DNA of 17,741 bases from Candidatus Schekmanbacteria bacterium RIFCSPLOWO2_02_FULL_38_14 (GTDB lineage: Bacteria > Schekmanbacteria > GWA2-38-11): positions 1 to 17,741 of the forward strand of contig MGDH01000023.1 of assembly GCA_001790855.1 (NCBI GenBank). The letters are read 5' to 3'. Made by a program: the position numbers and the translations under genes. Shown one piece after another: positions 4,432 to 16,167 of this stretch; positions within the stretch are counted from its first letter, which is position 1, and the number at the start of each line of letters is the position of its first letter. A model generated the notes under the pieces. That model was not told where the DNA came from. It saw only the letters and a list, made by a program, of their open reading frames with translations, and did not search any database.

Positions 4432-6708
4432 TTACCTGCCGGTTTTGCTTTCTAATGCCTTTAAAACTCTTTCAGGGGTGATGGGAATCTCTTTTATCCT
4501 GACGCCAATTGCGTTTGAAACAGCGTTGGCAATTGCCTGAGAGGTGCACTGAATCGGACCCTGTCCAACTTCCTTTGCTCCAAAAGGACCATAGGGGTCA
4601 TTTGTTTCAACAATTATTGTCTCTATGTCAGGCATTTCAATTGGCCTTGGAGTTCTGTAATCAAGAAAAGACGGATTCATTACCACGCCATTGTCCATTA
4701 AACATTCTTCATAAAGGGTTTGTCCCATACCAGAAAAAACCTGGCCCTCAATTTGTCCTTCAACTGCCATTGGATTAATGGCAAAGCCTACATCGTGGGC
4801 AGCAGTCATCTTTAATAATTTTACAAATCCGGTCTCCGGGTCAACTTCGACCTCAGCAATCTGTGCGCCAAAGGAGTAAGCCATTGAAGAGTTGCCTTCA
4901 AGGGTTTTAGGGTCTGCTGCCTGAATTGGAGGATTGTAAAATCCCTTACCCATTATGTATCTTCCCTCAGCCGAGTTAAGGGCTTCACTAACAGCATCAG
5001 AAAAGTTCATTGTTTTATCAGGATTCTTTTTAGATGAGATTTTCCCATTTCTGAAGAGCAGATCTCCTTGTTTTACCGCTAATTTTTCCGCAGCAATTTT
5101 TGCAATCTGCTTTTTGGCATCCAGAGCGGCTTTTTTGACTGCGTTTCCTGTTGTAAATGTTCCCCTTTGGGAAATTGCGCCTATATCAAGGGGAGTGATG
5201 TCTGTATCTCCTGCAACAACCTGAATATCCTCAAGCCTTATTCCAAGGGTTTCAGCAGCTATTTGAGCCATGGCTGTATATGAACCCTGTCCCATATCCG
5301 GAAGCCCTGTGAACAGATGTACTGTGCCATCTTCCTGAATTTTAAGAAAAGCTGCGGACGTGTCATATAAAAACATTCCCTTGCCACCGGAACGAATCAT
5401 CCCGCATCCAATGCCAATGCCTCTTAATTTTGGAAGTTTGCCATATTTCTTTTTCCAGTTGCTTTTCTTTGCAGCTTTTTTAATACATTCAGTCAAACCA
5501 CAGCTTGCGTAATGCATCTTGCTTGGAGTCGTATATCCTTTTGTAACAGCATTTTTCAGATTAATCTCTACCGGGTCAATTCCTAAATCCTGCGCAATCT
5601 GGTCAATCTGGCTTCCAAAGGCAAATCGCTGCGCAACCATACCTGCACCGTGGTGGAAGAAGTATGGATGGTTATTTGTGTAAACAAGTTTTCCCTCGCA
5701 TTTAGTGCCTTTTATTTTATAAAGCATCTGGAGATTAATGGCAAGGAACCTCAGAACTATAAACTGTGTGGCAAGATATGCTCCGGAATCTATGGTAAAA
5801 TTACTGTGCACTGCGCAAAGAGTGCCGTCTTTTTTAACGCCGGTTTTAAGGTCTATTAAATATTTTCCTCCTCCCCTGTAGACAAGAAATTCTTCATCGC
5901 TTGAAAACCTTAGCCTTACAGGTCTTCCGGTTTTCTTTGAGAGCATGGCTGCAATGTAATGATATGAGCGGTCGCTTCCTCTTCCGCAGAAAGCGCCACC
6001 CACATTTTGAGTTATGATTCTGACCCTGTTCTCAGATAGTTTAAAATTTGAAGCCATATTTTTCTGGATAAAATGGGTAGATTGGATTGGTGTCCAGATT
6101 GATAACTTTTCGGAAGAATCAAAGTGGGCAATGCACATATGATGCTCTGAGAAACAGCTATGGGTTGGATAAATTACAAACCTGTCCTCTCTCACATATT
6201 CAGACTCGGCAAACCCCTCTTCAACATTTCCGAAAGATATGTTTATATTGTCTGGTATGTTATCATCGTAAAACTCATGAACTTTTGGAGATTCCTTTTT
6301 AAGGGCTTCTTCCATGTCAAAAACAGCAGGAAGAGGTTCATAATCCACCTTTATTAATTCTAAGGCTTCTATTGCTGTATTTTCATCAACAGCAGCTACA
6401 GCAGCGACCTCATCTCCGATGAACCTGACTTTATCGCTTGCCAAAACTGTTTCATCAGGACCAGCATAAATCCCTTCAGTATCTTTATTCAGTAAAATGG
6501 CTTTGACTCCCTGAAGCTTTTCAGCCCTTGATATATCTATGTTGAGAATCTTGGCATGGGCGTGAGGGCTTCTCAGAATTTTGCTAAAAAGCATTCCCGG
6601 AAGGATTATGTCTTCAGAAAACTTTGCCTCTCCTGTTGCTTTTACTGCAGCATCCACCCTTGGCAGGCGTTTGCCAACTACAGAGTATTTGTCAGATTTG
6701 ATTGCCAC
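4432..6708 (-). CDS. Molybdopterin-binding subunit of a xanthine-dehydrogenase-family hydroxylase (HcrA-like)
   Basis: The large catalytic subunit (758 aa, usual length) of a molybdenum hydroxylase. It would bind molybdopterin cytosine dinucleotide and act in the cytoplasm with the two genes upstream. The N-terminal domain (KRLPRVDAAVKATGEAKF) and C-terminal cofactor domains are complete. They include VGGAFCG (236-242), DMGQGSYTAMAQIAAETLG (471-489), GDTDITPLD (500-508) and the end AIANAVSNAIGVRIKEIPITPERVLKAL. Two active-site positions are unusual. The conserved Glu of the VGEG/GEP motif is Gln716 (KEVGQGP). The FRGFGxPQ motif reads FHHGAGMVAQ (351-360). The partner FAD subunit points to 4-hydroxybenzoyl-CoA reductase, but these changes make the substrate uncertain. 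The start is GTG with AAGGAGG (complement of 6718-6724) nine bases away. Confidence 0.85.
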   Translation of the reverse strand: MAIKSDKYSVVGKRLPRVDAAVKATGEAKFSEDIILPGMLFSKILRSPHAHAKILNIDISRAEKLQGVKAILLNKDTEGIYAGPDETVLASDKVRFIGDEVAAVAAVDENTAIEALELIKVDYEPLPAVFDMEEALKKESPKVHEFYDDNIPDNINISFGNVEEGFAESEYVREDRFVIYPTHSCFSEHHMCIAHFDSSEKLSIWTPIQSTHFIQKNMASNFKLSENRVRIITQNVGGAFCGRGSDRSYHYIAAMLSKKTGRPVRLRFSSDEEFLVYRGGGKYLIDLKTGVKKDGTLCAVHSNFTIDSGAYLATQFIVLRFLAINLQMLYKIKGTKCEGKLVYTNNHPYFFHHGAGMVAQRFAFGSQIDQIAQDLGIDPVEINLKNAVTKGYTTPSKMHYASCGLTECIKKAAKKSNWKKKYGKLPKLRGIGIGCGMIRSGGKGMFLYDTSAAFLKIQEDGTVHLFTGLPDMGQGSYTAMAQIAAETLGIRLEDIQVVAGDTDITPLDIGAISQRGTFTTGNAVKKAALDAKKQIAKIAAEKLAVKQGDLLFRNGKISSKKNPDKTMNFSDAVSEALNSAEGRYIMGKGFYNPPIQAADPKTLEGNSSMAYSFGAQIAEVEVDPETGFVKLLKMTAAHDVGFAINPMAVEGQIEGQVFSGMGQTLYEECLMDNGVVMNPSFLDYRTPRPIEMPDIETIIVETNDPYGPFGAKEVGQGPIQCTSQAIANAVSNAIGVRIKEIPITPERVLKALESKTGR

Positions 6709-8647: not shown

Positions 8648-9757
8648 GTGGAAATGGAGAAAATGGGTAATTCAAGAAAATATTTTTTAAAAAGTGAGAT
8701 AATAAATCCTGAACCTATTCAAGGGGACTTGAATGTTTCAGAACTTGTTGATAAATATTTTCTTGCTTATAACAGCAAGAGGATAAAGGAGATATGCCAG
8801 CTTCTTACAAAAAAGGTTTTAAAGAAAGATGTAACTGTAGGACTCAGTCTTTCAGGGGCATTGACTCCTGCAGGACTTGGCAGGTCTGTTGTAGTTCCTC
8901 TCATTAAAAGCGGGTTTGTTGACTGGATAACTTCAACAGGTGCAAACCTCTACCACGATACACACTTTGGATTGAACCTTGAACTCAGGCAGGGGAGCCC
9001 GTTTTTAGACGACACAGAACTTAAAAATGAAAAAATAGTCAGAATCTATGACATAATATTTGACTATGATGTCCTTCTTTCTACAGACAGGTTTTACCGT
9101 GAGATTCTCAGGTTGCCAGAATTCCAGAAAGAGATGGGTACAGCAGAGCTGCATTATCTTATAGGGAAATATCTTTTTGAGCGTGAAAAAGCTCTCGGGA
9201 TAAAAATACCAACTCTTCTCTCATCTGCTTACCAGTATGGAGTTCCGGTATACACGCCTTCTCCAGGAGACAGCTCAATAGGAATGAACATTGCAGAGGT
9301 TATTCTTTCAGGAGGAAAGCTGAGAGTTTGTCCCTTTCTGGATGTAAATGAGACTGCAGCAATAGTTCTTGATGCTAAGAGAGCAAAGGGTAAGAGTGCG
9401 GTATTGATTGTGGGAGGCGGGGCGCCAAAGAATTTTATGCTTCAGACTGAGCCTCAGATACAGGAGGTCCTGAAGCTTGATGAAAAGGGACATGATTATT
9501 TTATGCAGATAACAGATGCAAGGGCTGATACAGGAGGGCTGTCAGGGGCAACTCCTTCTGAAGCAGTCAGTTGGGGAAAAGTTGATGAAGAGATGCTGCC
9601 CGATGCAGTAGTCGCATATATTGATTTTACAGTAGCTTTGCCAGTTATTACCAGTTATGTTCTATCAAAGGCAAAGCCACGAAAGCACAAGAGACTTTAT
9701 GATAAGAGAGAAGAGTTATTAGGAAGGCTTCAAAAAGAGTTTTTAAAAAAACCATGA
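8648..9757 (+). CDS. Deoxyhypusine-synthase-like protein (bacterial type)
   Basis: A 369-aa member of the deoxyhypusine synthase fold family. Eukaryotic and archaeal DHS use NAD and spermidine to modify a lysine of eIF5A. Bacteria lack eIF5A, and I understand that some bacterial homologues work on free polyamines (homospermidine- or spermidine-forming). The catalytic lysine is kept in EAVSWGK (Lys311). The N-terminal [14 protein letters not shown] and STGANLYHD segments also fit NAD-binding DHS. Residues that contact spermidine in the human enzyme are changed: the PKHH region is PKNF (260-263) and the DGSDSGARPDE region is [12 protein letters not shown] (294-305). So a different substrate is likely. 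The start is uncertain: GTG 8648, ATG 8654 or ATG 8663. No strong ribosome site distinguishes them. Confidence 0.87.
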
Positions 9758-15170: not shown

Positions 15171-15200
15171 AAAAAGGGGACGGACTGCCGCCCCCTTTTT
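15171..15200. repeat. Strong bidirectional hairpin upstream of the ABC genes
   Basis: AAAAAGGGG-A-CGG-ACTG-CCG-C-CCCCTTTTT forms a 12-bp stem with one mismatch and a 4-base loop. The T-run on one side and A-run on the other would let it terminate transcription in both directions. It lies just upstream of the ABC promoter and shields it from read-through. It also resembles dispersed GGGGACGG repeats. Confidence 0.7.
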
Positions 15201-15210
15201 GATAGAATTG

Positions 15211-15257: not shown

Positions 15258-15297
15258 TATTGGGTCCTAATGTCAATAAATCCTGCCATAAAAAATA

Positions 15298-15324
15298 TTG
15301 ACAAATCCAGTGGTATGATATAAT
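15298..15324 (+). promoter_or_regulatory. Promoter of the toxin-antitoxin pair
   Basis: TTGACA (15298-15303) and TATAAT (15319-15324) are both perfect. The spacer is short at 15 bases, but TGA directly before the -10 box makes an extended -10 (TGnTATAAT). RHH antitoxins normally bind over such a promoter; I see no clear operator palindrome. Confidence 0.7.
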
Positions 15325-15343
15325 GTAATACTGAAGGTGAGCT

Positions 15344-15586
15344 ATGAGCAAAGCAAAAATTGCCATTACATTAGACGAACAATTTATTGAAGATATAGAT
15401 AGACTTGTCAGTACACATATTTTTCAGAGTCGCAGTCAAGCCATACAGGAAGCAGTGGAAGAAAAACTGAAACGATTGAAACGTACCCGTTTAGCTAGAG
15501 AATGCTCCAAACTTGATCTTGATTTTGAAAAGGCAATGGCGGAAGAAGGCATGACTGAGGATTTGAGCCAATGGCCCGAATACTGA
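15344..15586 (+). CDS. Ribbon-helix-helix antitoxin
   Basis: An 80-aa protein whose first 45 residues look like a ribbon-helix-helix DNA-binding domain: the strand [10 protein letters not shown], helix [11 protein letters not shown], then [19 protein letters not shown]. The acidic C-terminal tail ([19 protein letters not shown]) is of the kind that wraps and blocks a MazF-type toxin. GAAGGTGAG lies a few bases before the ATG. Its last 16 bases overlap the toxin gene in another frame, typical of antitoxin-toxin operons. It should repress its own promoter together with the toxin, as known for the family. Confidence 0.88.
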
Positions 15587-15909
15587 GGGGTGATATTAGG
15601 TGGGCAGATTTAAACCCTGTGCGGGGCCGTGAGCAGGCAGGCTTACGACCGGTTTTAATTTTGAGTTACGAAATTTTTAATGAACGTTCTGGAACTGTTA
15701 TTGCCGTGGCTATTACCAGTCAGCCTCAACGTGCAGGGTTTCCTCTCACTCTTGAATTGAAAACAGTAGATTTGCCTAAACGTTCATGGGTTAAAATAAG
15801 TCAGATTCGGACTTTTTCCGTGGAGAGAATTGGAAAAATGATTGCCAAAGCAGATCCTGAAGAATTAGACCAGGTCATTGAAGGACTAAACGAAATAATA
15901 GGGGCATAA
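15571..15909 (+). CDS. MazF/PemK-family mRNA interferase toxin
   Basis: A 112-aa endoribonuclease toxin of the MazF/PemK/CcdB fold that cuts mRNA at short sequences when freed from its antitoxin. The N-terminal [27 protein letters not shown] has the family's GD-I-W-x-L-P and G-x-E-x-x-G-x-R-P-V blocks, here with Gln in the GREQAG segment. The middle [20 protein letters not shown] holds the conserved S-x-x-K-x-x-Q-I-R strand. The C-terminal helix is complete. The ATG has GAGG a few bases upstream inside the antitoxin gene. The stop codon TAA (15907-15909) lies within the left core of an attC-like site. Confidence 0.92.
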
Positions 15910-15960
15910 CAAATCACTCGTGCGGATGACGTGCCGCCACCGCGCTCTTCGGCGTTGGGC
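15904..15960 (+). other. attC-like integron recombination site
   Basis: The left core GCATAAC (15904-15910, 6 of 7 bases of RYYYAAC) contains the toxin stop codon. The right core GTTGGGC (15954-15960) fits GTTRRRY exactly. The total of 57 bases is at the short end of the attC range. The two cores pair imperfectly, and GTGCGG pairs with CCGCGC inside (one G-U pair), giving the hairpin shape attC sites need. Stop codon inside the left core is typical of gene cassettes. No integrase gene and no second site upstream of the antitoxin was found, so a lone or degenerate site is possible. Confidence 0.45.
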
Positions 15961-16056
15961 GGCCACTTCGCAGGTGAGACAGATACTTCAAATGCAACAT
16001 CTCAGACAATGTCGTGTACTGATTGAATCTATCTCAGCAAATTGAGCAAGGAGAGC

Positions 16057-16104
16057 GGGTTAAGATTAACCCTGACAGAGGCGGTCACGAGAGCAACCGC
16101 CTCT
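16057..16104 (+). other. Two hairpins before the glycosyltransferase gene
   Basis: GGGTTA-AGAT-TAACCC (16057-16072) is followed by AGAGGCGGT-CACGAGAGCA-ACCGCCTCT (16077-16104), a perfect 9-bp stem with TTTG after it. The second may be a weak terminator or a leader structure of the following gene. The rest of 15961-16167 shows no gene. Confidence 0.5.
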
Positions 16105-16167
16105 TTGCGTTAATGGACCAAGAGGTAACTAAAAAGTAAACTGGTTGCCAGAAAAGAGATGTTCATC

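Follow-up and report, generated by a model that had tools for sequence, protein, structure and literature searches.

A toxin–antitoxin gene pair ending in a worn attC site: a probable integron cassette stranded in a Schekmanbacteria genome

Why should a toxin–antitoxin (TA) gene pair end in a sequence that resembles the attC site of an integron cassette, on a scaffold where no integron is seen? The question is raised by a stretch of 17,741 nucleotides, called here the window, which forms the first 17,741 bases of scaffold C23 (35,830 bp) in the source genome G000 (2.68 Mb, 43 contigs, 99% complete). An earlier note, made from the letters alone, had placed at 15344–15960 a TA pair ending in an attC-like site. 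Open reading frames, Pfam and a covariance model confirm these coordinates exactly. The note's further proposal, an integron cassette, is supported by a covariance search, by intI and further sites in G000, and by relatives of the pair.

The gene pair and its attC site

The features of the locus are as follows.

15265–15302, + strand: left edge region of the cassette, a leader common to two other G000 loci
15298–15332, + strand: probable promoter/operator of the TA pair, from sequence and from the same elements preceding homologous pairs elsewhere
15298–15303 and 15319–15324, + strand: TTGACA and TATAAT, spacing 15
15344–15586, + strand: antitoxin gene of the RHH (CopG/RHH_1) type, 80 aa (ORF; Pfam PF01402)
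15571–15909, + strand: toxin gene, PemK/MazF family endoribonuclease, 112 aa (ORF; Pfam PF02452)
15904–15960, + strand: attC, 57 bp (covariance model, homologous sites, covariation)
15904–15910 and 15954–15960, + strand: R'' GCATAAC and core G^TTGGGC
C15919 and A15926: positions expected for the two extrahelical bases of attC, in agreement with the family consensus
15961–16158, + strand: right flank of the crossover point, without ORF (sequence comparison)

The toxin lies above the PF02452 cut-off (E 2e-28), and its relatives with solved structures are MazF/EndoA mRNA interferases. The antitoxin scores 21.7 bits against PF01402, where the cut-off is 20.5, and in homologous pairs an antitoxin-like gene likewise lies upstream and overlaps. 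By its predicted products, a PemK/MazF toxin and an overlapping upstream antitoxin gene, the pair is assigned to the type II TA systems of the MazEF/PemIK class. The probable promoter/operator region contains the imperfect inverted repeat GGTATGATATAATGTAATACT; a generic promoter scan omitted this promoter because the scan demands a spacing of 16–18 nt. Toxin dN/dS against eight homologs is 0.04–0.13, which indicates purifying selection on the TA pair as an average across many lineages, without proving that selection acts in the G000 lineage itself. The pair with its attC is present in a single copy in G000.

As the earlier note had read, the toxin stop TAA (15907–15909) falls inside GCATAAC, and 57 bases run to GTTGGGC. 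The 3′ core is an exact GTTRRRY, and the 5′ GCATAAC is off RYYYAAC at one position. The covariance search that the note had called for was carried out with self-built models, R1 from seven sites and R2 from 18 sites that all lie outside the window. R2 scores the window site at 44.3 bits with E 9.7e-9 over the whole 2.68-Mb genome, and the site is therefore far beyond chance under a model that has not seen it. Plasmid R388, which carries a class 1 integron, served as the positive control for R2. Both known cassette attC were found, behind dfrB2 (31150–31206, E 4e-14) and behind the next cassette ORF (31639–31707, E 2e-11), and beyond these two nothing on R388 fell under E 0.6. In the genome of L048, which has a complete integron (locus L149), the model found four consecutive attC on the strand opposite intI. 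Covariation was also found. Both sides change in 13 of 16 pairs in the 20-site and 58-site alignments, and the score was reached by none of 500 shuffles, alignments A3–A5 having been fitted to the model structure, which biases them toward it; in the unfitted seven-row alignment A2, a shallow one, covariation is weak. Homologous attC sites occur behind other copies of the TA pair and behind other genes. Taken as a matter of sequence comparison, the window site is identified as an attC.

Simpler tools give a different picture. The pattern TAACAA-n-GCGTTRGGC has the window site as its sole match in G000, and used alone it would mislead, since the covariance model detected further attC sites in this genome. 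The search of the window against Rfam returned no match, no attC family being present there at threshold.

Relatives of the cassette and integron traces in the genome

A scan of 84,980 species genomes gave at least 548 loci with relatives of the toxin, of which the best 80 were retained. In these best 80 of at least 548 the toxins are 76–95% identical to that of the window, and the hosts are Deltaproteobacteria, Nitrospirota, Planctomycetota, Brocadia, NC10, Gemmatimonadota and others. An attC begins at the toxin stop in 15 of the best 80 loci (E up to 0.1) and ends just upstream of the pair in 11; one or the other position is occupied in 22. The matches are strongly oriented, with 42 on the TA strand versus 2 on the opposite strand. 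Several of these loci carry a clear homolog of the window site behind the toxin stop, L051 with CATAACAATTCACTCGTGCGGATGGCGTTCCGCCACCGCACAGTTC being one. Several of the relatives stand in arrays, with four consecutive attC in L077 and three in L051; attC flank the pair on both sides in L051, L053, L054 and L120, and the pairs of L077 and L091 lie within arrays.

The boundaries of the homology agree with those of a cassette. In 25 of 77 loci the region preceding the antitoxin contains a left core of the GTTATGY/GTTRRRY type; among random stretches the share is 9%. Among the relatives the left limit of homology is TTATGC and the right limit the GTT core, and this TTATGC complements the R'' GCATAAC, as expected because the circular cassette form carries one attC. 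When the TA-attC stretch was compared with a plasmid collection by blastn, no match was obtained; viral contigs gave pattern matches, and a true relative of the stretch was absent among them.

Two side observations concern the relatives. In L039 (genome G053), a homologous TA pair has GCGTTAGGC before it and, at 5855–5887 behind it, the site GCCTAACAGCGGCTGAAGCCAACGTTGGGC, which at 30 bp is unusually short and is perhaps an attC shortened by deletion. In G060, the Planctomycetota genome of L045, 24 attC-model matches are spread over many contigs (loci L207–L219), several of them behind genes that by eye resemble HicA/HicB, VapBC and other TA genes, and intI was found as fragments only. Genomes bearing the TA cassette (G060, G061, G062, G070, G001 and others) repeatedly contain short pieces from the C-terminal part of an integron integrase, which suggests that the 5′ part of intI has been lost repeatedly in such genomes.

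The search for intI and for more sites, likewise proposed in the earlier note, yielded the following elements of G000 beyond the window.

C25:29705–29920: IntI relic, the last 72 residues (C-terminal), TIGR02249, 111 bits
C25:41562–41627: second attC, R1 (this site not in the model), 24.7 bits, E 0.006
C15:14800–14859: decayed attC, not preceded by an ORF, 35.4 bits, E 4e-6
C25:28887–29103: junction of a flank shared with G001 C76:13315–13516 (L222); the loci of the C25 features are L135 and L146

In a second comparison the relic matched the integron integrase at 113 bits, clearly ahead of XerC/XerD, and it is 80% identical to the IntI of G060. It lies on another contig than the window and is all that G000 has of the integrase; a complete intI with attI beside an array is absent from this genome. 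The second attC directly follows a pair made up of a BrnT-like toxin and a CopG-like antitoxin; each protein scores just below its Pfam cut-off. The earlier note's statement that the site stands alone thus fails for G000 as a whole, given the relic, the second attC and the decayed one, and holds for the 35.8-kb scaffold, where the genome-wide IntI search gave no match and the attC model found no second site.

G001, a genome of the same family, contains four attC on four contigs and shares with G000 a flank of 154 bp at 94% identity. The identity starts exactly at CGTTAGTCC, and the attC before the GTT are unrelated in the two genomes. The G000 copy of this flank adjoins an attC-like hairpin beside the IntI relic, and a ZIP-type transporter gene lies farther along in both genomes. 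The stretch C25:29039–29103 is attC-like by eye and was not picked up by the models; it is supported as a real junction because its flank is conserved in G001. We read the flank, from the sequence alignment, as a putative orthologous integration site that received different cassettes, a trace of IntI crossover common to two genera.

Cassette edges, neighbouring DNA and competing explanations

The left edge of the window cassette departs from that of its relatives: the window has TCCTGCCATAAAA, as against TTATGCCATAAA, GTTATGCCATAAA or GTTATGCC. The canonical boundary G^TTRRRY is absent at this locus, TCCTGCC standing in place of G^TTATGCC. The motif CTGCCATRAAAANNATTGAC has exactly three mismatch-free copies in G000, which precede the window pair (C23:15283), the BrnT-like pair (C25:42213, minus strand) and a small ORF (C29:90936); the C23 and C29 copies have 38 bp in common. 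By eye, the small C29 ORF appears to be the end of a REP-associated transposase. From the three copies it follows that a leader common to G000 probably took the place of the left part of the window cassette or recombined with it.

To the right of the GTT, the window sequence is unlike that of every homologous site, as expected of a cassette boundary. The contrast in composition that the earlier note described across the site is real: left of the site the G+C is about 38%, and over about 3.3 kb right of it 52–58%. This right part holds genes for a GT4 glycosyltransferase and a GH130 phosphorylase (57% G+C, about 16.2–19.3 kb, from 16159 to C23:19311) in surroundings of about 38–40%, and the closest relatives found are 58% identical. 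The block was considered as a second cassette and rejected, as the model search found no attC after it. A hairpin at 16061–16112 before the GT4 gene, attC-like by eye, was also rejected; the model gives no match there. The genes conserved in relatives are an ABC exporter pair on the left and a cluster of ftsB, oligopeptide-transporter and phosphomutase genes on the right, from 25.5 kb. These two conserved parts enclose about 10 kb, which G001 and G002 lack next to their ftsB/oligopeptide-transporter cluster. This interval is a mosaic: besides the GT4 and GH130 genes it comprises stretches of low G+C and, at 21.5–24.5 kb, a block with a G+C of about 50%, and within it attC belongs to the TA pair alone. 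REP-like hairpins with GGGGACGG/CCGTCCCC arms were observed around the island, at 15172–15202 of the window and at about 20000 and 25291–25358 of C23. The earlier note's suggestion that DNA may have entered at this site is plausible; the reading is weakened because the left edge is non-canonical and the G+C-rich GT4/GH130 segment has no attC of its own.

Two alternatives would deny that the site is an attC at all. The spacing of TAA and GTTGGGC could be coincidental, as the isolated window sequence folds no better than shuffles; an E of about 1e-8 with the left-out model, and the recurrence in many phyla of homologous pairs followed by homologous sites, already refute chance and leave it a negligible probability. 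The site could instead be a conserved 3′ hairpin of the TA operon, a terminator or mRNA-stability element that is merely attC-like. Loci of the Syntrophaceae type (L074, L077, L078, L085, L091) indeed have a terminator-like hairpin with T-runs right after the stop. The window copy, however, is without a T-run and the terminator scan finds none, while the same model detects sites behind unrelated genes, in arrays and at both class 1 integron attC; the homology of the relatives, moreover, is bounded by TTATGC and the GTT core. Such an element is thus a very improbable explanation. By descent and from its sequence, the TA pair is very probably an integron gene cassette that ends in an attC.

How the cassette came to this spot is less certain. 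The whole TA-attC unit may have arrived inside a larger, horizontally acquired mosaic island (15.2–25.4 kb) and not by IntI here, which agrees with the mosaic composition, with the lack of the stretch in G001 and G002 next to the conserved ftsB/oligopeptide-transporter cluster, and with the non-canonical left edge. The REP-like hairpins and mixed composition of the island, however, suggest several separate events, and no integrase, further attC or single pair of bounding repeats was found in it; arrival with the island is a serious contender, somewhat short of an even chance. As against carriage with an island, insertion of the pair by itself through IntI at this locus has about even odds. The abrupt change of composition could also stem from an assembly chimera, the G+C-rich right segment being misjoined to a low-G+C scaffold at a repeated attC/TA sequence, and the assembly is a draft of metagenome type with an N gap at C23:17742–17749. 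Yet TA and attC are single-copy in G000, the left flank has the leader common to two other G000 loci, and family-conserved genes resume on the scaffold at 25.5 kb; a misjoin is accordingly improbable.

Wear of the site and retention of the pair

Folding of the bottom strand, the remaining check proposed, went against the expectation. The hairpin claimed between the cores can be drawn as an attC stem in the window copy; it is not the minimum-energy fold. The 57-nt site has a z of +1.4 versus shuffles, and a 62-nt stretch there gives -0.24. By hand count 3 of the 16 model pairs are non-standard, 2 of the 3 L-box pairs are broken, and the site looks worn. Other sites fold better, with z of -3.0 (L051), -2.3 (L045), -5.1 (the G001 site) and -5.4 (R388), and a second attC copy in L051, one cassette upstream, folds alone as an attC with both bulged bases. 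Poor folds are also seen at the TA-linked site of L046 (z 0.03) and the C25 site of G000 (z 0.85). Folding the window copy alone would mislead, since it is the comparison with relatives that identifies the attC. Because of its poor fold the copy is probably weakly recombinogenic or dead; at present the window attC is likely to have little activity or none.

The most likely account of the locus is that of a once-mobile TA cassette stranded after the decay of its integron and retained by its own promoter and by addiction. A PemK/MazF cassette with its own promoter would have circulated among many phyla, moved by integron integrases, and IntI would once have moved the window copy as well. In this lineage the integron would then have decayed, intI being reduced to the 72-residue C-terminal relic and both surviving TA-linked attC of G000 losing their good bottom-strand fold, so that the pair was left as a solitary cassette. 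In this family the toxin, an mRNA interferase, is neutralised by the antitoxin, which also acts as repressor of its own promoter; when the locus is lost, the toxin is set free. The window pair may behave likewise, and its persistence would be accounted for by its own promoter together with the punishment for losing an addiction module. The low dN/dS and the poor fold at both TA-linked sites of G000 fit retention of the genes alongside erosion of the site once intI is lost. It is a tentative extension, somewhat doubtful as yet, that promoter-bearing TA cassettes outlive their integrons in general, one PemK/MazF cassette lineage consisting, across many phyla, mostly of solitary genomic insertions that are kept by addiction, with attC eroding after intI is lost. 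If this is true, G000, with two TA cassettes, an eroded intI and an integration site orthologous with that of G001, would be a natural snapshot of the process.

The cassette is ordinary in kind, since TA genes of integrons and solitary attC are already known. The superintegron of Vibrio cholerae has 19 TA cassettes, and promoter-bearing cassettes of this kind stabilise large integrons (PMC11023631); set against these, the window pair joins a PemK/MazF toxin to an RHH antitoxin. It resembles the TA cassettes of sedentary chromosomal integrons, which are thought to punish loss, in being a type II pair with its own promoter and an attC directly after it. Unlike them it is solitary, without an array or intact integrase, in a sparsely sampled lineage. 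The window site is a single attC with no integrase nearby, as in SALIN/CALIN, SALIN being the name for a solitary attC lacking integrase (PMC12690207); it differs in its wear and in the IntI relic and other solitary attC elsewhere in G000. With the dfrB2 attC of R388 it shares the 57-bp length and the general layout (R''/R' and L boxes, positions expected for extrahelical bases, a short loop), whereas the R388 site folds strongly. Insertion of cassettes into genomic attG sites (Loot et al. 2024, as relayed in PMC11023631 and PMC12901181) would explain single cassettes scattered over a chromosome, yet an intact attG junction is not definable at the window locus. Integron genes listed from metagenomes already include TA systems, BrnT/BrnA among them (PMC7370490). 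Mildly interesting are the distribution across phyla and the stages of decay that are preserved. Because this one cassette recurs in many phyla with sites from well-folding to worn, the erosion of attC can be traced against intact TA genes. Beyond the well-studied Proteobacteria, a stranded cassette adds one more stage to the life of integrons, and the case lets one test the addiction-based retention of TA cassettes once the integron is gone.

Elsewhere in the window, at 8648–9757, a deoxyhypusine-synthase-like gene (PF01916, 217 bits) was observed in this bacterial genome, adjoining a threonine-synthase-like gene.
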